From: Vicinamibacteria bacterium
GTDB taxonomy: Bacteria; Acidobacteriota; Vicinamibacteria; Fen-336
Reading direction: 5' to 3'
NCBI GenBank assembly: GCA_035570235.1
Contig: DATMML010000011.1
Coordinates: 1-42,507 of the forward strand
Length of the DNA stretch: 42,507 bases
Position 1 is the first letter of the stretch. The number at the start of each line of letters is the position of its first letter. Under the pieces are notes generated by a model. It was not told the origin of the DNA and ran no database searches. It was given only the letters and a program-made list of their open reading frames with translations. Of the stretch, positions 14,702 through 33,966 are shown in pieces. Made by a program: the position numbers and the translations under genes.

Positions 14702-16387
14702 ATGGATTTTGACATCGATCGCGACGCCGTTCTCCAGACTTTCCTGAGCGAGTCCGAAGAGGGACTGGCCATGATGGAGGAGGCCCTGGTCGGCCTAGAG
14801 TCACGTCCGGAAGACGGAGAGCTCTTGGCCGCGGTCTTCCGGGTGGCCCACACCTTGAAAGGGAACGCGTCGTCCCTCGGATTCGAAGGCCTGGTGCGCC
14901 TCTCCCACACCCTGGAGGACTTGCTGGACCGCGTGCGCAACCGCGCCATTCCGGTGACGGGGGACTTGGTCACGCTCTTGCTGGATGCCGTCGATGCCCT
15001 CCGCGACCTAGTCCCTGCCGCCGTCAACGGCGGCGAGGCCCTGACCGTGGTTCATGAGGCGCTTCTGCGGGAGCTCTCGCGCCGGGCGGGGGGGGTGGAC
15101 GATCCACCGCCAAGCACGGGGTCCGGGGGAGCCCCCCGCGGGGAAGAGCCCGCCACCCCCGAGCCCGCGCGTCCCGCGGAGCATCGCAGCCTCCGCGTGG
15201 ACATCAACCGCCTTGACCGGATGCTCGACCTGACGGGCGAGATCGCGATCGCTCGCGGTCGCCTTCGGCGGATGCTCGAGCAGCACGGGGCCCCGGCCCC
15301 GGTCCTGGAGGCGCAGGGGGAGGTCGACCGTCTCTCCCTCGATCTTCAGGAGCTGGTCATGAAGGTTCGGCTCGTGCCCCTCCGGGGGACGTTCCGAGCG
15401 TTCGTGCGGACGGTCCGCGACCTGGCCGCTCGCCAGGGCAAACAGGCCCGCCTGATCCTCGAGGGCGAGGACGTGGAGGTGGACACGAGCGTCATTGCGC
15501 AGGTGCGCGACCCCCTCACCCACATGATCCGCAATGCGCTCGACCACGGCATCGAAGCGCCGGAGGTGCGCCGGACGGTGGGCAAGGATCCCTGCGGGAC
15601 CCTCGCCCTGCGCGCACGCCACGAGGGGGCCACGATCGTCATCGAAATCGCGGACGACGGCGCCGGCCTCAACCGCGAGCGGATCCTTGAGCGCGCCCGG
15701 GAGCGGGGCATCGACGCCGAGCACAAGGAGGAAGAGGAGATCCAGCGGTTGGTCTTCGAGCCCGGCTTCTCCACCGCGGAGACGGTGACGGAGCTGTCGG
15801 GACGCGGCATCGGCCTCGACGTGGTACGACGCAATGTGATGGCCCTGCGCGGGAAGGTCGGGATCCGCAGCCAGGAGGGCATCGGCACCACCATCACCCT
15901 GCGTCTTCCCCTCACTCTCGCCATCATCGACGGATTCATCGTGGGGGTGGGAGACGAGGCGTACGTGATTCCCCTGGAGGCCGTGGTCGAGTGCCTGGAG
16001 CTCCCGAAGGAGGCCTCGAGCGACACGAGGGAGGGCGGGGTCATCAACCTGCGCGGTGCGGCCCTGCCCTATCTCCGGCTCCGCCGGCTATTCGGTCTCG
16101 GCGCTCGGCCCGGGCAGAGGGAGCACGTGGTCGTGGTACGGCCGGACGCGGGACGGCAGGTCGGCCTCGTCGTGGACCACCTCGAAGGCGGGTTCCAAAC
16201 CGTCATCAAACCCCTGGGGCGGCTCTTCCAAGGGCTCTCCGGAGTCGCCGGCTCCGCCATCCTCGGCACGGGGCGGGTGGCGATGATCCTGGACGTGCCT
16301 TCTCTATTGGCGGAGGCCCTTCGGGGGCAAGAGGCGGCGAAACACGAGCAGTGGTCCGCTCCGAAAGCGGAGAGTCAGGGAGCTTGA
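14702..16387 (+). CDS. cheA: CheA-type chemosensory histidine kinase
   Basis: 561 residues, shorter than E. coli CheA because there is no P2 CheY-docking domain. Order: HPt/P1 (1-115) with phospho-His50 in [14 protein letters not shown]; a Pro/Gly-rich linker (125-160); P3 dimerisation (162-225); P4 ATPase (226-405) with N-box [18 protein letters not shown] and the G-box [10 protein letters not shown]5 CheW-like domain (410-540) with [18 protein letters not shown]. All catalytic elements are intact. It takes its input from the two MCPs through CheW and can phosphorylate CheY (12940), CheB (22144) and perhaps the stand-alone receivers further down. It follows cheD by six bases. Confidence 0.95.
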
Positions 16388-16413
16388 GGCCAGCAATGGC
16401 AAGGAGAACATTT

Positions 16414-18192
16414 ATGGTGAAGAACCTTCGGATTGGCAAGCGGTTGGGCCTGGGGTTTGGCCTGATCCTGGTCCTCATCGGAGGAGTGGCCACCGCCGGG
16501 TACTGGGGGCTGGAGCGGGTGGCAGGCCTTGCCCACGAGATCCTCAGGGTCAGCGCCCCACTCGTCGAGCACTCAGAGCGCGCGCGCGCGACCACCCTGG
16601 GCCTGCGGCGCTTCGAAAAGGACTATTTCCTCAACATCGGCTCGCCGGACAAGGAAGCCGAATATGTGGCCAAGTGGAAGGACCAGAAGAAGCGCCTGGA
16701 TGAGCGTTTGGACGAGCTAGAAAAGCTCGCCCAGAGCGAGACCGATCGGGAGACCGTCCGCAGCATGCGGAAAGACGCAAATTCTTATGAGGATGGCTTT
16801 CAGAGAGTGCTGACGGGCATTCGCGAGGGGGCGGTGAAGACGCCTCAGGAGGCAAACGCGGCCATCTTGCCATTCAAGGATCCGATCCACGGCTTGGAGG
16901 ACGCGGCTTACGAGTTCGCCATCAAGCACTCCAAGGCGATGGAGTCCGTCGAGCCCATGCTGGCGGAAGCCGTGCGGCGCACCAACGCGATCGTGTTCGG
17001 CGTGATCCTGGCGGCTCTGGCTCTGGCCGGCGCGGCGGGGGTCGTCATCACACGGAGCATCACCGCGCCCCTGGCCCAGGCCGTGAAGGTGGCGGAGCGG
17101 GTGGGGGCGGGTGAGGTCGACGTCCTAATCGAAGTCGATTCCCAAGACGAAACCGGGCTCCTCCTCAAGTCCTTGCAGGGCATGGTGGCCTCCCTCAAGC
17201 GGATGGCAGGAGCGGCGGCGGCGGTCGCGGGCGGAGACCTCACGATCAGATTGAACCCCCAGTCCGAGCGCGACGCACTCGGCAACGCGCTCTCGGAGAT
17301 GGTGGGCCGCCTCACCCAGACGATCGGTGAAGTGAAAGCGGGTGCGACCGCGCTGTCGGCGGCTTCGGCCCAGGTCGCGGCCACGTCGCAGAGCCTCTCC
17401 GCGGGGACGAGCGAGCAGGCGGCTTCGGTCGAAGAGACCACCGCCAGCCTGGAGGAGATGTCTGCTTCCATCACCCAGAATGCGGAAAACAGCCGCCAAA
17501 CGGAGCAGCTGGCGATCAAGGGTTCGAAGGACACCGAGGAGGGGGGCCGGTCGGTGAAGGAGACCGTGGTGGCGATGCGAAGCATTGCTGAGAAAGTGTC
17601 GATCATCGAGGAGATCGCCTACCAGACGAACCTCCTGGCTCTCAACGCGGCCATCGAGGCGGCGAGAGCGGGGGAGCACGGCCGGGGTTTTGCCGTAGTC
17701 GCCACAGAAGTGCGGAAGCTTGCGGAGCGAAGCCAGACCGCGGCTAAGGAGATTAGTGGTTTGGCCGCGTCAAGCGTAACCGTGGCCGAGCGGTCTGGGC
17801 AACTCTTGGGAGACCTCGTACCCAGTATCCGGAAGACGGCTGACTTGGTGCAAGAGGTGACAGCCGCCTCGGCCGAGCAAGCCTCGGGGGTCGCCCAGAT
17901 CAACCGGGCCATGACCCAGGTGGACCAAGTGACCCAGCGCAACGCCGCCGCGACCGAGGAGCTCGCCTCGACCGCGGAGGAGATGGCGGCTCAGTCGGAG
18001 GCTCTGCAGCAGCTCGTCTCCTACTTCAAGGTTACGGCCCTGGAGGGCGGTCCGGACCAGGTGACCACCCTGTCGCGGAGCACCACCGCCCGTGCCGTCC
18101 CGCGCAAGAGCAACGGCGAGGCGCGAGCCATGCCCGAGAGCCCAGCCTGGCACCGCACGGCCGGCGCCGACGCGGACTTCAAGCGGTTCTAG
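16414..18192 (+). CDS. methyl-accepting chemotaxis protein with HBM-like sensor
   Basis: 592 residues. Membrane helices lie at about 11-31 and 190-212 and enclose a roughly 155-residue helical sensor whose [12 protein letters not shown] motif is typical of HBM (helical bimodular) domains. HAMP follows, then the signalling hairpin with tip [20 protein letters not shown]. Compared with E. coli Tar, the C-terminal arm between AAKEI and the E(V/I)xxAS element is seven residues (one heptad) shorter, suggesting the 34H length class. The protein ends in ADFKRF after a flexible tail, like the second MCP (GFVRF), a possible tether for CheR/CheB. The ATG at 16414 has AGGAG eight bases upstream; ATG 16396 is in frame but lacks a ribosome site. 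cheW follows after nine bases. Confidence 0.93.
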
Positions 18193-18201
18193 GAGGTGTC
18201 C

Positions 18202-18783
18202 ATGGCAAGCCAACCGACCGTGGCCGAGCAGGCCCAGTATCTCGGCTTCCAAATAGCCGGGGAGGAATACGCGATCGGCATTCTCCGAGTGCGGGAGATC
18301 TTGGAGTACGACACCCTCACCAAGGTGCCGACCACCCCCCCGAGCATCCGGGGGGTCATCAACCTGCGCGGGAGCGTGGTGCCGGTGGTGGATCTGGCGG
18401 TGAAGTTCGGGCTCTCGGAGAGCGTGATCAGTAAGCGGACGTGCATCGTGGTGGTGGAAGTGAACCTGGATGGTGAACGGGCGGTGATGGGTGTTCTGGC
18501 CGACGCCGTCAGCCAGGTCATCGATCTGCCGGCAAGCGAGGTCGAGCCACCCCCGCCGTTCGGGACCCGGGTACGGGTCGACTGCCTGATCGGAATGGGA
18601 AGGGCAGGCCGGAAATTCGTCCTCCTACTCGACATCGACAAGTTGCTGTCACTGGACGAGCTGGAGATGACACGCCAAGAAGCGGGCCCGACCGCCGCCG
18701 TCCCTCCCGAGGCACGAAGGGACGGGGAGCCGAGCCCCGCCGAGCGGGACCAGCCCGTCCCTCCAACAGAGATGGGGTCTTGA
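18202..18783 (+). CDS. cheW: CheW coupling protein
   Basis: 193 residues. CheW links receptors to the CheA P5 domain in the signalling array. The double SH3-like fold is evident: YLGFQIAGEEYAIGILRVREIL, VPTTPPSIRGVINLRGSVVPVVDL, MGVLADAVSQVIDL and FVLLLDIDKLL. A Pro/Glu-rich tail of about 30 residues follows the domain. The ATG at 18202 is preceded by a strong AGGAGG; a GTG two codons upstream is not preferred. It lies directly behind the HBM-type MCP gene in the same operon. It is the only CheW in the window. Confidence 0.96.
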   Translation: MASQPTVAEQAQYLGFQIAGEEYAIGILRVREILEYDTLTKVPTTPPSIRGVINLRGSVVPVVDLAVKFGLSESVISKRTCIVVVEVNLDGERAVMGVLADAVSQVIDLPASEVEPPPPFGTRVRVDCLIGMGRAGRKFVLLLDIDKLLSLDELEMTRQEAGPTAAVPPEARRDGEPSPAERDQPVPPTEMGS

Positions 18784-18898: not shown

Positions 18899-19360
18899 AT
18901 GCGAATGATGTCAGTCGGGGTTCTGGCGTTGATGGTGGGTTCGAGCGGGCTCGTTCAGGCCGCCAAAGAAGAGTTCGGCACCGCCCGGGAAGCGGAGGCC
19001 ATGGTGGACAGGGGAGTCGCCCGCATTAAGGCCGTGGGCTCAGAGCGGGCCTACGCCGACTTCACGGACAAGGCCCCTGGATTTGTCGACCGTGACCTCT
19101 ACGTCGTGGTCTACGACCTCGAGGGCCGCGTATTGGCCCACGGACAAAACCCAAAGATGGTGGGCAAGGATCTGATCGACCTCCGTGACGCGGACGGAAA
19201 GGCCTGGGTCAAGGAGAGGGTCGAGCTGGCCCGCGGCAAGGGAAAGTTCTGGCACGACTACAAGTTCACGGATCCCCTGACGAAGAAGGTGCTGCCGAAA
19301 TCCACCTATTGCGAGCGGGTCGAGTCGACGGCCGTCTGCGTGGGGATTTACAAGCGGTAG
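18899..19360 (+). CDS. secreted single-Cache-domain protein
   Basis: 153 residues with a short signal peptide (about 1-22, ending SGLVQA-A) and then a compact single Cache domain of the sCache_2 type: REAEAMVDRGVARIKAVG, AYADFTDKAPGFVDRDLYVVVYDLEGRVLAHG, NPKMVGKDLIDLRDADGKAWVKE, FWHDYKF. Cys residues near positions 139 and 147 could form a disulfide. There is no membrane anchor or signalling domain, so it should be a free periplasmic ligand-binding protein. It ends nine bases before the second MCP gene, whose own sensor is a helical bundle, which suggests they act as partners. The 115-base gap after cheW shows no clear promoter. Confidence 0.85.
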   Translation: MRMMSVGVLALMVGSSGLVQAAKEEFGTAREAEAMVDRGVARIKAVGSERAYADFTDKAPGFVDRDLYVVVYDLEGRVLAHGQNPKMVGKDLIDLRDADGKAWVKERVELARGKGKFWHDYKFTDPLTKKVLPKSTYCERVESTAVCVGIYKR

Positions 19361-19369
19361 GGTCCGGTC

Positions 19370-21058
19370 GTGTCCGCGCTTCGGCCGCAAATCACGGAAA
19401 GGCAGGATGTCTTGAAGCTTTATCAGCGCATTCTCTTAGCCCCCGGGCTAGCCCTTTTTTTCTTGCTCCTGTTCGGGGCGGTGGTCTACCGGGCCTTGAG
19501 CACCGACCAGGTCGCGATGAGGGAGATTTTCAGCACCCGCTTCGGGATCTTCCAGAAAGCAGATCAAGCTTTGGCGGACATCGACGCAGTTCATGCTGCC
19601 GTGTACCGTCTCGTGACCTGGATCGGAAACTACGACCCGGCCAAGATTGCGCATAAGTCCGCCGAGTTGATGACCCAGATCGACGGTGCCACCGCCATCG
19701 CGAAGGGGCTGGCGGGCGAGGCTCGGCTGAGCGATGAAGAGAAGGGGCACCTGGAGGCGATCCTGGGTCAGCTCGCCAACTACCGGAAGCACGTGGCGAC
19801 TGCCGTCGACCTTGCGAGCGTCGATGTGAACACGGGCTTGGCCGCCCTGCAGACGGCGGACATGACGTACCAAGAGCTGCGCGGCAGCCTGGATGGGCTC
19901 ATCGACGTCGAGAAAAAGCTCGCCCAACGGCGATACGACGAGGCGTTGGCCACCTACCAGGGCGCCCTTCTTCTCGCCAGCGTCGTCTTTTCACTGGCGA
20001 TCGCGGGCGCGGGCATCGCCGGCGGCCTCGTCACTCGCTCCGTCACCCGGCAGTTGGGCGGGGAGCCGGAATATGCCTCGGAGGTGGCGCGGCGGGTGGC
20101 GGAGGGAGAGCTCACGCTGGCCATCGCCACTCGAGCAGAGGACCGCTCGAGCCTGCTCTTCGCCATGAAGACGATGGTGGAGCGCCTAGCCCAGGTCGTA
20201 GGGGACGTACGCGCCTCGGCGACGGGCCTCTCCGGGGCCTCGGACCAGGTGAGCGCCACCGCCCAGGCTCTTTCCGAGGGGACTTCTGAGCAGGCGGCCT
20301 CCGTGGAGGAGACGACATCGTCCCTAGAGGAGATGAGCGCTTCCATCACGCAAAACGCGGAGAACAGCCGTCAGATGGAGAAGATGGCCTCCCAGGGGGC
20401 GCGAGACGCGGCGGAGAGCGGAGAAGCGGTGTCCCAGACGGTGGGGGCCATGAAGTCGATCGCGACCAAGATCTCGATCGTGGGCGAGATCGCTTACCAG
20501 ACCAATCTTCTTGCTCTCAACGCCGCGATCGAGGCCGCGCGGGCGGGTGAGCACGGGAGGGGCTTTGCGGTGGTGGCCACCGAGGTCAGGAAGCTGGCGG
20601 AGAGGAGCCAAATCGCGGCCAAGGAGATCTCGGGGCTGGCCGATTCGAGCGTGGAGCTGGCGGAGCGAACGGGCCAGTTGCTCACGGATCTGGTCCCCTC
20701 GATCCGCAAGACCGCGGACCTGGTCCAGGAAGTAACGGCGGCTTCCATGGAGCAGTCGTCGGGGATAGGCCAGCTCAACAAGGCCATGGTCCAGGTGGAC
20801 CAGGTTACGCAGCGGAACGCCTCCGCGGCGGAGGAGCTGAGCTCCACCGCGGCGGAGATGGCCTCCCAGGGCGCCGCTCTCGAGGAGCGGGTGTCCTACT
20901 TCCGCCTGCCCCAAGAGATCATGAATGCCGTCCCCGTCATCAGCCCGCGGCCTCCAATGCCGGCCAAACCATCGTCGTCCCTGCTACCGGGGTCGGGCGG
21001 GGGCAACGGGCGGGGTGCGGTGCCGGAGCGAGCGGAGAAGGGCTTCGTTCGCTTCTGA
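19370..21058 (+). CDS. methyl-accepting chemotaxis protein with 4-helix-bundle sensor
   Basis: 562 residues. Membrane helices at about 22-42 and 202-226 flank a 4HB_MCP-type helical sensor ([40 protein letters not shown]). HAMP contains [19 protein letters not shown]. The signalling domain is nearly identical to that of the MCP at 16414, with the same tip ([20 protein letters not shown]) and the same one-heptad shortening of the C-terminal arm. A Pro/Gly/Ser-rich tail ends in EKGFVRF. The GTG start at 19370 lies nine bases after the Cache gene stop and has only a GGGT-like ribosome site, so translation is probably coupled to the Cache gene. Confidence 0.93.
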
Positions 21059-21259: not shown

Positions 21260-22147
21260 ATGGTGAGCGAAGGAACCCCGACCGCCCTCCGCGGTCTGCG
21301 GCACGGTCCCGCGTCCTTGTCGGAGCGCCACTTCGGACTCTTCCGGGCCCTCATCCACCGGGAGGCGGGCATCCATCTCTCTCGCGCCAAAAAAGCCCTG
21401 GTCGAGGGACGGCTGGCGCGGCGGCTCCGCGAGCTCGGGCTCGACTATGGGGCCTACTACCGGCTCGTGGAGTCCGACGAGGGGGAGCGGGTGCGCATGC
21501 TGGACTGCATCTGCACCAACGAAACCCACTTCTTCCGCGAACCAAAGCAGTTTGCCTTCCTGGAGAGTCGGGTATTTCCGGAGTGGGTCGCGCGAGGCGA
21601 GGGCGGAAAGATGCCGAGGCGGGCGCGCGTTTGGAGTGCGGGTTGCTCGACGGGCGAGGAGCCCTATTCCCTGGCCATGTCCTTCCTGGCCCGCTTCCCT
21701 CCCTCCTCGGGATGGGAGATCGACATCCTGGCCACGGATCTCTCCACGCGTGCCCTGGAGAAGGCCCGGTCCGCGGTCTGGCCGCTGGCCAAGGCCAAAG
21801 AGATCCTGCCTCCATACCTCAAGACCTTCATGCTGAAGGGCACGGGCCCGCAAGCGGGAAACATGAAGGCGGGTCCAGAAATACGTTCCCGCGTGCGTTT
21901 CCAGCGACTCAACCTGAATGCGGAGCCCTTCCCACTCGCGGACCGTTTTGACCTCATCCTCTGTCGGAACGTTCTCATTTATTTCGACGCCCTCGCCAAG
22001 GCGCGGGTCATGAACAGGCTGATCGACCGCCTGGACCCCCAGGGTTACTTATTTCTGGGACATGCGGAGACGGTGGCGGGCCTGAACGCCCGCATGCGCA
22101 GCGCGGGTCCGACGGTGTACGTTCCCGCGGGCGGGCCTCAGGCATGA
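21260..22147 (+). CDS. cheR: CheR, chemoreceptor methyltransferase
   Basis: 295 residues. CheR methylates glutamates in MCP cytoplasmic helices using SAM. The N-terminal helical domain (about 18-85) leads to TNETHFFREPKQF, and the SAM-binding site is VWSAGCSTGEEPYSLAM (about 124-140). DILATDLSTRALEKA and the FDLILCRNVLIYF strand complete the Rossmann-like fold, and GYLFLGHAET is at the end. There is no TPR or docking domain, so it probably acts by direct binding. A gap of 201 bases separates it from the second MCP and shows no gene and no clear promoter, so the operon may continue through it. Its stop overlaps the cheB start. Confidence 0.95.
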   Translation: MVSEGTPTALRGLRHGPASLSERHFGLFRALIHREAGIHLSRAKKALVEGRLARRLRELGLDYGAYYRLVESDEGERVRMLDCICTNETHFFREPKQFAFLESRVFPEWVARGEGGKMPRRARVWSAGCSTGEEPYSLAMSFLARFPPSSGWEIDILATDLSTRALEKARSAVWPLAKAKEILPPYLKTFMLKGTGPQAGNMKAGPEIRSRVRFQRLNLNAEPFPLADRFDLILCRNVLIYFDALAKARVMNRLIDRLDPQGYLFLGHAETVAGLNARMRSAGPTVYVPAGGPQA

Positions 22148-23256
22148 GGACCCTGCGTGATCCGGAGCGCCTGGAGGTGCTGGTGGTCGACGACTCCGCG
22201 GTCGTCCGACAGGTGACGACCGCGATCCTGCAGAGAGTGGGATTCAACGTGGCGGTAGCTTCGGACCCGTTGATCGCGATGCAGAAGATGGCTCAGTCGC
22301 GTCCGTCCGTGATCCTTCTCGACCTGGAAATGCCCCGGATGGACGGCCTGTCGTTCCTGCGCAAGATCATGACCGAGGATCCCATCCCCGTTGTCGTCTG
22401 CTCCGGTCTCGCGGGGGCGGGCACCCAAGGTGCGCTTCAGGCGATGGAAGAGGGTGCGGTGGCGGTGGTAGCCAAGCCCCGACTGGGGATCCGCGAGTTC
22501 CTCCAAGACTCCGCCATCGCCCTCGAAGAGGCCTTGCGGGGGGCAGCGGCCGCCCGCCTCCGGCCGCGCACCCACTCCGCCGCCTCGTCTGGCCACCGGG
22601 GAGAGGCCGGCTTGGCGGTTGCCGGACCCCGCCTCCGGGTGACGACCGACCGCGTGCTCGCCATTGGAGCCTCGACGGGCGGGACTGAGGCCCTGCGCGT
22701 CATTCTGGAGAGCCTGTCTCCGGACTGCCCCGGGCTGGTCATCGTCCAGCACATGCCCGAGATCTTCACGAAGGCCTTCGCAGACCGGCTAAACCAGACC
22801 TGCCGCATCGAGGTGAAAGAGGCGGCCCACGGCGATCGCGTGGTGGAGGGCCGTGCACTGATCGCCCCCGGCAATCGCCACACCATCGTGGTCCGCGACG
22901 GGGCTCACTACGCGGTGCAAGTCACGGACGGTCCCCTGGTTTCCCGCCACCGACCGAGCGTCGATGTGTTGTTCCGGTCGGTGGCCGCCGCCGCCGGGCC
23001 CAACGCGGTGGGGGTGATCCTGACCGGGATGGGGGCCGACGGGGCGGACGGCCTGCTGGCCATGAAGCGAGCCGGTGGCTCCACCATCGCTCAGGACGAA
23101 GCAAGCTGTGTGGTCTTCGGTATGCCCAGGGAGGCCATCGTGAGGGGGGCGGTGGACGATGTGGTCCCCCTGCCGCTGATCCCTGCGTCCATGCTGGCGA
23201 AGGCGGGCTCGCAGGGGCCGGGCGAGAGGAGGCGGGACCAAGGCAGTTGCGCGTGA
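22144..23256 (+). CDS. cheB: CheB, receptor methylesterase/glutamine deamidase response regulator
   Basis: 370 residues. The receiver (about 10-125) has DD16/17, phospho-acceptor Asp60 (LLDLEMPRMDG) and Lys111 (AKP). After a variable linker, the C-terminal esterase carries the Ser/His/Asp triad: Ser177 (IGASTGG), His203 (VQHMPEIF) and Asp299 (TGMGADGADGL). Phosphorylation by CheA should activate demethylation of the MCPs. The ATG shares bases with the cheR stop (ATGA). It is the last gene of the che operon; a tight GC hairpin lies across the stop codon, then a decayed tnpB. Confidence 0.96.
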   Translation: MRTLRDPERLEVLVVDDSAVVRQVTTAILQRVGFNVAVASDPLIAMQKMAQSRPSVILLDLEMPRMDGLSFLRKIMTEDPIPVVVCSGLAGAGTQGALQAMEEGAVAVVAKPRLGIREFLQDSAIALEEALRGAAAARLRPRTHSAASSGHRGEAGLAVAGPRLRVTTDRVLAIGASTGGTEALRVILESLSPDCPGLVIVQHMPEIFTKAFADRLNQTCRIEVKEAAHGDRVVEGRALIAPGNRHTIVVRDGAHYAVQVTDGPLVSRHRPSVDVLFRSVAAAAGPNAVGVILTGMGADGADGLLAMKRAGGSTIAQDEASCVVFGMPREAIVRGAVDDVVPLPLIPASMLAKAGSQGPGERRRDQGSCA

Positions 23257-23403: not shown

Positions 23404-23745
23404 GTGGCGATTTGCGCCTACTAGTTCCGGGCGTACCCGACGCCGCGGCAGCAGAGCCGCGTGGCCCGGGAGTTCGGGGCTGCGCGCTGGGTTTATAACC
23501 GGGGCCTGGAAACAGTCTCCCCGGCCTGGCGTGAGCGGCAGGAGAGGATCACCTGCGTCGATTTCTCGCGCCAAGTGACCAAGCTGAAGCAGGCCGAGGT
23601 GCCCTGGCTGAAGGAAGTCTCGAGCTATGTGCTCACCCAGTCGCTTCGGGATCTGGAGCGGGCCCTTAAAGCATCTACTCCAAGCGGGCTCGCTACCCAC
23701 GCTTCAAGAAACAGCGCGCAGTTCGTTACCAGCTTGATGCGCGAC
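23404..23745 (+). pseudogene. decayed tnpB (IS200/IS605-family OrfB) fragment
   Basis: Remnant of a TnpB-type RNA-guided nuclease gene. The frame from 23404 reads VAICAY-stop-FRAYPTPRQQSRVAREFGAARWVYNRGLE, the usual N-terminus with the Lys/Arg of AYKFRAYPT replaced by TAG (23422-23424). It continues through SYVLTQSLRDLERALKA, then changes frame near 23672 to IYSKRARYPRFKKQRAVRYQLDAR, consistent with loss of one base. Similarity stops at about 23745, so the RuvC-like catalytic domain and zinc finger are gone. Stop, frameshift and truncation mean it is dead. No tnpA or clear transposon ends are seen. It lies between the che operon and the sigma-54 promoter of the GGDEF-EAL gene. Confidence 0.8.
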
Positions 23746-23886
23746 TCGTCGCCGTGGCTGCAACGCCCCCCCGTAGCCGCGAGCATGCCCATTCACGTTC
23801 CCGGGCGAAACGCCCTTCCGCCGGGCCTATAGCCCGAAGCTCAGGCTGGGCACCGCCGCTCCCGCGTCCCCCCGGAGCCGTCCTGA

Positions 23887-32118: not shown

Positions 32119-33711
32119 TCAGTTGACCCCTACCGCCGTCCAGGCCAGGGCCACCTGGAGGGCCTCCGGGCTCGCGGGGCCGTAGAGGTCCGCGGCAGCT
32201 TGCAGGGTCGCGGCGCGCGCATCCGCGAAGGTAGCAGTGGGCGTGAGGTAGGCCGTAAAGCCACGGTAAAAGATCTTCTCCGCCTTCTCGCGATTGGGAC
32301 TCCCCAGGCCGCCCACCCCCATCCCCGAGGTGCGGTTCACGCCCCCCTCGATCAGGAGGTAGAAGGCCTGGTTGATGACGCCGTTGTTGTGGTGAGCCCC
32401 GCCCGAGTCGTTGGGGCCGTGGTAGAGCCGGGAGTAGTGGTCGGCGTCGCAACCGGTCTGGGGGTTGCAGAACTGCGAAGGGTTCTCCATCGAGCGCACC
32501 GCCGTCCGGGGAGGATCGAAATCGAAGGCCAAGTCCTCGCCCAGGAAGTAGTCCGCCAGGAGGCGTCCATTCCCCGGCCGCTGCTGGAAGAACTCGACCG
32601 AGGTGCCCATGATGTCGGAGAAGGCCTCGTTGAGGGCGGCTGTCTCTCCCACGTAAATGGCGGCCCAGGTGTACTGCGTGACGCCGTGGGTCATCTCGTG
32701 GGCCACCACGTCCAGGGCTCCCGAGAAAACCCCGTACGTCCCGTTTCCGTCTCCGTAGAACATGCTGTTGGTGAAGGGGTCCCAGAAGGAGTTGGCGAAG
32801 TCGGAGGCCGGGGAGAGCAGGTGGGTGATGCTGCGCATGGGGAGGTCCTGTCCGTCGATACCCCGCCGGCCGTGGCGCTTGAAGTAGTAGTCGTACGTCC
32901 AGCCCGCATAGGTGTGGGCATCCACCACGCCCCCGTCCGTCCACGTATTGTTCGTGCTGGTGGCAACGAAGGCGGGATCGATGACGGCCGTGGTGAGGAA
33001 CAGATCGGCGGCGAGAAAGTTGAACTTCAGATCGTAGGTCGTCAAGGCCGGTGGGCGCAGCTGGTCGACGGCCCGGAAGGAGCCGCCCACCGCGTCCGCC
33101 GAGACCTTCTTCTTGTCGCCCCACACTCCCGTGCCCAAGCCCACCGCGGAAACGGTGGGCAGGTCGTCGTAGCGCCAGGCCACCTGCCCGGTATGGGCGT
33201 CGACAAAATAGCGATCGAGGTGGTGGTCGAACCGCACCCACAGCGTCCAGGCGAGGGCGGTGTGGCTGATGAGGGGGAGGAGCACCAGTTCGGGTTCGCC
33301 CACGGCCCGCGCGCCCTGTCCCCGATCGACCTCCGCCACGCGCACCGCCTGGTTCGGGGTGACCGCGGGCACGGTATCCACGGCGATCCCTTCCTGCAGG
33401 CGGCCGAAGACGGAGAGGGTTTCCCCTTGTTCGTCCACCTGCCGGACGAGCTGGGCGCCGAAGACGCGCACCCCCCCGATGCGCTGTTCGTACCGCCGGT
33501 GTTGCCGATTCGGAAAATCCGCGTCCGGCTGGACCGAGGCCAGGCGGAGGGCATCCTGTGCCTGGAGAGCGTCGATCCGGGCGCCCCAGATCCGCGCCTC
33601 GGGTCCGGTAACTGCGGCCACCCGCGATTCGTGGTGAAGGAGATCGTCGGGGGCGCTGGTGCCGCCCGCGAGGGACAAAATGAAGAGAAGGGGGGCGAAA
33701 CGCAAAGACAT
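32119..33711 (-). CDS. secreted M4 (thermolysin-family) metalloprotease
   Basis: 530 residues. A signal peptide (about 1-20, LRFAPLLFILSLAGGTSA) is followed by an FTP/propeptide region (to about 180: YEQRIGGVRVFGAQLVRQVD, FVDAHTGQVAWRYDDLP) and the catalytic domain. Zinc site HEMTH is at 338-342 and the third ligand Glu362 is in NEAFSDIMG; the later HxNNGVINQAFY block carries the transition-state His region. All active-site elements are present, so an active extracellular zinc endopeptidase is likely. The ATG at 33711 has GGAGG five bases upstream, and a consensus-like promoter sits just before it. It heads an operon with the beta-barrel gene and diverges from the ABC permeases. Confidence 0.92.
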   Translation of the reverse strand: MSLRFAPLLFILSLAGGTSAPDDLLHHESRVAAVTGPEARIWGARIDALQAQDALRLASVQPDADFPNRQHRRYEQRIGGVRVFGAQLVRQVDEQGETLSVFGRLQEGIAVDTVPAVTPNQAVRVAEVDRGQGARAVGEPELVLLPLISHTALAWTLWVRFDHHLDRYFVDAHTGQVAWRYDDLPTVSAVGLGTGVWGDKKKVSADAVGGSFRAVDQLRPPALTTYDLKFNFLAADLFLTTAVIDPAFVATSTNNTWTDGGVVDAHTYAGWTYDYYFKRHGRRGIDGQDLPMRSITHLLSPASDFANSFWDPFTNSMFYGDGNGTYGVFSGALDVVAHEMTHGVTQYTWAAIYVGETAALNEAFSDIMGTSVEFFQQRPGNGRLLADYFLGEDLAFDFDPPRTAVRSMENPSQFCNPQTGCDADHYSRLYHGPNDSGGAHHNNGVINQAFYLLIEGGVNRTSGMGVGGLGSPNREKAEKIFYRGFTAYLTPTATFADARAATLQAAADLYGPASPEALQVALAWTAVGVN

Positions 33712-33747
33712 GATGGCCTCCGGCCCGCCGGCCGCGATCCCGCCCGG

Positions 33748-33776
33748 ACTATAGGGGTCGCCACCCAAGGGGTCAA
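33748..33776 (-). promoter_or_regulatory. strong sigma-70-type promoter of the M4 protease operon
   Basis: On the minus strand TTGACC (33771-33776), a 17-base spacer and TATAGT (33748-33753) give five of six matches to each consensus hexamer. Transcription should begin near 33741, about 30 bases before the protease ATG, with the GGAGG site inside this short leader. Confidence 0.8.
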
Positions 33777-33966
33777 GCACGCCGCGCGAGGTCCTCGCGG
33801 CGGGAGCCTCGGTGGGACGCCCCTGGCCCCCGACAGCCGCCGGCGCCAGTTGGGGCCGAAGCCCGGCTCTCGCGGGGAAGCGCCTCAAGATGTGGAACAA
33901 CAACCCGACGCCGCGATCAAAGGAATGATCTTCCGGCCCGCGCTCGCGTTCAGGAAATGCTGCTCC

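Follow-up and report, generated by a model that had tools for sequence, protein, structure and literature searches.

A free periplasmic Cache protein encoded beside a four-helix-bundle chemoreceptor is a candidate detached ligand-binding subunit

Introduction

Among extracellular sensor domains Cache is the largest family, and its members are thought to occur almost only as covalently joined parts of receptors, and many chemoreceptors with a four-helix-bundle (4HB) sensor have no known ligand. Soluble periplasmic binding proteins act together with transmembrane receptors in the pairs MBP–Tar, RBP/GBP–Trg, dipeptide-binding protein–Tap and LuxP–LuxQ; in the first three of these the sensor of the receptor is a four-helix bundle. 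In the DNA analysed here, a stretch of 42,507 nucleotides from a Vicinamibacteria bacterium (contig DATMML010000011.1; hereafter the window), a che operon holds a small gene for a Cache-only protein directly before a methyl-accepting chemotaxis protein (MCP) with a helical sensor. A preliminary description of this region proposed that the small protein binds a ligand and docks on the receptor. We wanted to establish whether the two genes belong together and, if so, what a Cache domain might do for a receptor of which it is not a part.

Results

Gene content of the che operon

The chemotaxis genes of the window form one gene run in the order CheA–MCPa–CheW–[Cache–MCPb]–CheR–CheB, with the following features:

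14702..16387, + strand: CheA (Pfam)
16396..18192, + strand: MCPa, a 4HB and HAMP chemoreceptor (listed open reading frame 15991-18192, probable start 16396 or 16414; Pfam)
18196..18783, + strand: CheW (Pfam)
18899..19360, + strand: free periplasmic single-Cache protein (sCache_2) of 153 amino acids (open reading frame with ATG start, Pfam, AlphaFold)
18899..18961, + strand: part coding for the signal peptide, with predicted cleavage between VQA and AKEEF (sequence, hydrophobicity, A-x-A pattern)
19370..21058, + strand: MCPb, a chemoreceptor of 562 amino acids arranged as TM1, 4HB sensor, TM2 and signalling domain (open reading frame, Pfam, model)
19487..19945, + strand: 4HB sensor of MCPb, a member of the Cache-associated subfamily described below (motifs YRL.TW and YRK...A.D.A..D...G...QTAD; sensor alignment, profile)
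20145..21055, + strand: signalling part of MCPb, its core 80% identical to MCPa (sequence comparison)
21260..22147, + strand: CheR (Pfam)
22144..23256, + strand: CheB (Pfam)

There is no ABC transporter gene beside the pair, the immediate neighbours being only CheA, MCP, CheW, CheR and CheB. The whole genome encodes four MCP signalling domains in all. Just 3' of CheB a short open reading frame (23461-23832) resembles by eye the N-terminus of an IS605-type TnpB and is a possible transposon remnant; further along, the reverse strand carries a gene for a secreted thermolysin-like (M4) metalloprotease (32119-33903; HEMTHGV motif, by eye).

The Cache protein and its receptor

The 153 amino acid protein consists of a signal peptide (residues 1 to about 21) and a mature Cache domain (residues 22–153), and it matches the Pfam family sCache_2 (PF17200) at 1.2e-12, with 48.5 bits against a cut-off of 25. 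The core of the signal peptide reaches a Kyte-Doolittle value of 1.89 and the mature part a maximum of 0.82, giving no hydrophobic stretch and no anchor after cleavage; an A-x-A-like cleavage site and the same hydrophobicity picture were found in 36/36 paired homologues tested. The protein is thus predicted from its sequence to be soluble, exported and anchor-free, as expected of the soluble partner in a binding-protein-dependent chemoreceptor system. AlphaFold modelled the mature protein as a single Cache fold (pLDDT 95.3, pTM 0.88), the best PDB structure matches of which were the sCache domains of receptors (Adeh_3718, VP0183 and PscD; Z approximately 16). In this model Cys138 and Cys147 (residues 117 and 126 of the mature protein) fall on strands 110–120 and 123–130 at facing positions of the last beta hairpin, which makes a disulfide between them likely, whether structural or redox-active. 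A heme Cache (sCache_heme, DUF3365) was also considered and rejected, as a CXXCH motif is absent from 18899-19357 and PF11845 was not among the Pfam matches.

MCPb begins 9 nt after the Cache reading frame, at a GTG codon with AGGG approximately 8 nt 5' of it. It has two transmembrane helices and matches both MCPsignal (4.8e-37) and 4HB_MCP_1 (3e-7; 30.6 bits, cut-off 27), as 4HB-type methyl-accepting chemotaxis proteins do; Pfam returned no HAMP match in MCPb. The sensor was modelled with high confidence as four long helices, and a phmmer search of the PDB with it gave no meaningful match. Both proteins had therefore been read correctly in the preliminary description, the one as a signal peptide plus one Cache domain lacking an anchor (Pfam, hydrophobicity, AlphaFold), the other as a chemoreceptor with a 4HB sensor nine bases downstream (reading frames, 4HB_MCP_1, four-helix model); its remark that the ribosome site of the receptor is weak was a fair one.

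Free Cache genes beside MCPs in other genomes

Relatives of the window Cache were sought across 84,980 species, giving 26 loci; nearly all of those at least 50% identical to the window protein had a same-strand MCP directly downstream; the records concerned carry the labels Beta-, Gamma- and Alphaproteobacteria, Nitrospirae and Deltaproteobacteria. With whole-genome flanks added, the number of distinct free Cache genes rose to 113; few family members turned up when a whole class was sampled evenly (369 genomes, the class of G156), and surveys at the level of family and order were used instead. The sample was collected by resemblance to the window protein and contains many related loci, so that linkage counts are not independent events. 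In it, the free Caches with a cysteine pair in the last hairpin (YC...C.G.Y) were followed directly by an MCP gene at 30/37 informative loci, versus an adjacent MCP on either side for 14/70 cysteine-less free Caches (Fisher, 9e-10). Gaps between Cys-type Cache and MCP ranged from -38 to 133 nt, one over-called start excepted. The seven Cys-type Caches with no adjacent MCP were those of L024, L040, L164, L195, L197 and L228, and of L198, where an MCP lies 1.2 kb away. Three loci (L034, L035 and L038) have their Cache gene within a complete che operon, as does the window. The co-location of Cache and MCP is far beyond chance.

Two simpler statements about this family proved false. Not all free Caches pair with MCPs, as the cysteine-less ones mostly have no MCP neighbour, and those of the Oxalobacteraceae are found mostly in unrelated contexts; nor is the cysteine pair needed for pairing, as MCP-paired Caches lacking cysteines occur in Nitrospirota and in a betaproteobacterial group with several such members. 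At the two Nitrospirota loci the paired MCP carries a different helical sensor.

A sensor subfamily that rarely occurs without a free Cache neighbour

The 4HB sensors of the paired MCPs can be aligned to each other and share the motifs YRL..W and Y.K...A.D.A..D...G...Q.AD. A profile built from them (A2) was run on 37 genomes and on 200 genomes of one betaproteobacterial family; in the 200 it identified 32 receptors at E<=1e-10, one of them truncated by a contig end. A free Cache gene was present within 1.3 kb, upstream or downstream, for 28/31 of the receptors with readable flanks, and for 18/21 when the members used in building the profile (10/32) were excluded. The three positive receptors with no nearby Cache were G555:5050781, G555:4937069 (disrupted) and G677:C12:205907. 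Only 1/6 of the matches between 1e-10 and 1e-5 stood beside a Cache, and the link therefore belongs to the close sensor subfamily.

Eight of the 200 genomes, with 207 MCPs between them, were used for a direct comparison. A free Cache lay beside 10/12 sensor-positive MCPs versus 0/195 others (Fisher, 2e-15), the latter count being derived from the flanks of the free Cache genes in these genomes with Cache matches at E<=1e-30 only; with the training members removed the figures were 5/7 and 0 (Fisher, 8e-9). The link was kept at four loci where the order is reversed and the Cache is 3' of the MCP (L176, L292, L294 and L295). At L201:3486-7450 a free Cache lies directly 5' of a HAMP-PAS-GAF-HisKA kinase that bears the same 4HB sensor, and the association thus follows the sensor rather than the MCP output. 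Receptors with this type of sensor seldom lack a free Cache neighbour, a stronger result than the co-occurrence of the gene pair for which the preliminary description had suggested looking.

Origin of the pair in the lineage of the window

Among 149 genomes of its class, a Cys-type free Cache was found only in the genome of the window. Relatives of the same family harbour CheA-MCPa-CheW-CheR-CheB (G005, L321) or CheW-CheR (G004, L320), and in both CheW and CheR are approximately 10 nt apart with neither a Cache nor a second MCP between them. The signalling core of MCPb is 80% identical to that of MCPa and approximately 33% identical to those of Cache-paired MCPs elsewhere, while the identity of its sensor reaches 37% with Cache-paired sensors and is 15% with the sensor of MCPa. 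On these sequence comparisons, the simplest reading would be that a copy of the local MCP acquired, from a foreign source, both a new sensor and the Cache gene belonging to it. Given the adjacency of CheW and CheR in the relatives, and an MCPa-like signalling core joined to a sensor of the Cache-paired type, Cache and sensor therefore appear to behave as one module, gained or lost jointly in this lineage. A mirror-tree comparison of Cache and sensor distances, beyond that of the signalling domain, gave a weak positive correlation (partial r 0.25; reached by 13/2000 permutations).

In the same genome (L002) a second free Cache gene of the Cys type survives as a remnant at C83:98559-98633, encoding the last 25 residues with 76% identity; transposase-like open reading frames were recognized by eye approximately 0.7 kb from it.

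The ligand pocket

In the structure of PscD, propionate is hydrogen-bonded by Tyr90, His103, Tyr143 and Lys156 and sandwiched by Trp92 and Trp145 (PMC5062169). The four hydrogen-bonding residues have counterparts in the window Cache at Tyr68, His81, Tyr121 and Lys134, and this Tyr/His/Tyr/Lys set, a mark of the sCache_2 domains of the PscD/McpP type that bind short-chain carboxylates, was invariant in 40/40 paired free Caches examined. The aromatic sandwich is not retained; the window protein has Val70 at the position of Trp92 and Phe123 at that of Trp145. More widely, the Trp92 position is Val, Thr or Met in Cys-type paired Caches and Phe in most others, and the Trp145 position is Phe. Histidine at the contact position, as present in the window Cache, marks the pyruvate-binding rather than the L-lactate form (PMC12415202). 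Because the carboxylate-binding residue set is invariant, the predicted ligand is a small carboxylate, which the window Cache would probably hold in a pocket altered on one side.

Discussion

A model for the Cache–MCPb pair and its alternatives

We propose that the Cache protein is the soluble periplasmic ligand-binding subunit of the MCPb encoded downstream of it. A small carboxylate would bind the Cache pocket in the periplasm; the Cache protein would then dock on the MCP dimer at its periplasmic four-helix bundle, and the docked Cache would alter kinase activity, in one direction or the other, via the CheW and CheA of the same operon. We regard this as reasonably likely overall: the ligand would probably be a carboxylate, and the contact would be made with the helical sensor of MCPb. 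The preliminary description had put forward a detached, ligand-binding Cache docking on the MCP, and this is supported in part, by the pairing, by the module-like gain of the two genes and by the conserved carboxylate-contacting residues; the docking step itself is inferred.

The same pairing could arise if the 4HB sensor read the ligand directly and the Cache acted in the pathway without docking, buffering, scavenging or competing for that ligand and so shaping sensitivity. 4HB sensors such as those of Tar and MCP2201 (PMC10735184) bind small ligands directly, and gene pairing alone is compatible with such a role. However, one sensor subfamily has been tracked by the Cache across MCP and histidine kinase outputs, which points to surface contact, and the Cache pocket is fully conserved; we therefore consider the non-docking role quite improbable. 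We also judge it improbable that the Cache is a co-transcribed passenger with a separate periplasmic role that merely shares the operon. Free Caches are a broad family with up to 17 members per genome, the cysteine-less ones of the Oxalobacteraceae lie mostly outside any chemotaxis-related context and three sensor-positive receptors have no Cache nearby, all of which would suit a passenger; against this stand the contrast between sensor-positive and other MCPs in the eight genomes (10/12 versus 0/195), the persistence of the link where the gene order is reversed and from one phylum to another, and the joint gain or loss of the pair in the lineage of the window.

Two further readings concern the chemistry and the expression of the pair. 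Were Cys138 and Cys147 a periplasmic thiol/disulfide sensor signalling through the MCP, it would be fitting that both cysteines are present, at facing hairpin positions, in 30/30 MCP-paired Cys-type Caches and that this type is the one most often linked to MCPs; it is simpler, though, to take the disulfide as structural, the carboxylate pocket is conserved, and the paired Caches of Nitrospirota and several of those of betaproteobacteria do without the cysteines, and we think a redox sensor very unlikely. Hardly credible is the production of a single Cache–MCP polypeptide by read-through. In the window the two reading frames are in frame with a TAG as the only stop between them, but gaps in other pairs are in frame in 16 of approximately 39 cases, about chance level, the stops vary (TAA, TAG and TGA) with extra stops at some loci, and a fusion would place the Cache at the cytoplasmic end of TM1; on the evidence of the out-of-frame pairs and the varying stop codons this reading was rejected. 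As a docking test, the read-through chain was also modelled with AlphaFold (pTM 0.53, linker pLDDT <50); the model gave no confident placement of the Cache, in a prediction that included neither an MCP dimer nor a membrane and had the Cache tied to the cytoplasmic end of TM1.

Relation to known systems

Our favoured reading, a Cache subunit docking on MCPb, resembles the MBP–Tar kind of system in combining a soluble periplasmic ligand-binder, predicted from sequence, with a transmembrane four-helix-bundle receptor. It differs in that the binder is a Cache and does not have the periplasmic-binding-protein fold, in that the operon of the window contains no ABC transporter gene, and in that the Cache is encoded next to the receptor, whose sensor appears dedicated to it. 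By analogy, the window system most likely works like MBP–Tar without being a member of that family. Adjacent genes for binding protein and receptor are also a feature of the sensor kinases AgtS and AruS of P. aeruginosa, which are activated by a solute-binding protein (SBP) encoded beside them (PMC11113362); those systems join an SBP fold to a histidine kinase, whereas the window joins a Cache to an MCP.

The window Cache shares its fold (Z approximately 16), its sCache_2 sequence family and the four carboxylate-contacting residues with PscD (5g4y), Adeh_3718 (4k08) and VP0183 (2qhk/4exo). In those proteins the domain is a covalent part of the receptor between TM1 and TM2, whereas the window Cache is a separate secreted protein and, unlike the receptor-embedded domains, ends two residues past the last strand. 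Stand-alone Cache domains are considered atypical, with more than 90% being fused, and those of the stand-alone sCache_heme type (DUF3365/Tll0287) have been assigned redox roles (PMC12889525, 2026 preprint). The preliminary description was thus right that Caches are normally built into receptors, but free Caches are commoner than it assumed and many have no MCP neighbour. Both sCache_heme and the window Cache are free-standing and extracytoplasmic; the window protein lacks CXXCH, and the role given to sCache_heme is redox rather than that of a receptor subunit. A search of the open-access literature turned up no case of a chemoreceptor working with a free or soluble Cache, and the role we propose here, in which the free Cache is probably the receptor's detachable "nose", has not been reported there for Cache domains.

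Whether the pair represents an undescribed receptor class is, in our judgement, evenly balanced; in such a class a dedicated subfamily of helical-bundle sensors would have the detached Cache as its exchangeable subunit for ligand binding, and the two-gene module would serve different outputs (chemoreceptors and a sensor histidine kinase) and would have moved between phyla as a unit. If the model holds, ligand screens on isolated 4HB domains would miss the signal, the binding domain being the product of a neighbouring small Cache-only gene. The pair, with a soluble protein of approximately 130 residues and a sensor of 150 residues, offers a small testable system for the study of helical-bundle receptors driven by binding proteins.

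Other arrangements of the Cache family

Several other arrangements were encountered in the surveys. At L034:4548-5508 a tandem of two free Cache genes lies 5' of the MCP in a complete che operon, and at L197:3498-7158 a Cys-type free Cache with no MCP neighbour is preceded by CheW-like genes and by a CheA-like kinase that has a receiver. The genomes of a Pseudoduganella (G166) and a Rugamonas (G168) each contain 17 Cache-family matches, most of them free proteins of a single domain whose gene neighbourhoods are not related to chemotaxis. In L087:121-1884 and other frames of 530–600 amino acids the same Cache family is fused to the C-terminus of an MCP, 3' of the signalling domain; such Caches are predicted to be cytoplasmic, which is unusual for a Cache. 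Finally, frames of approximately 290–370 amino acids (for example at L299 and L300) encode proteins of about 300 amino acids with two tandem Cache units and no receptor part, and these two-Cache proteins are common in one betaproteobacterial family.
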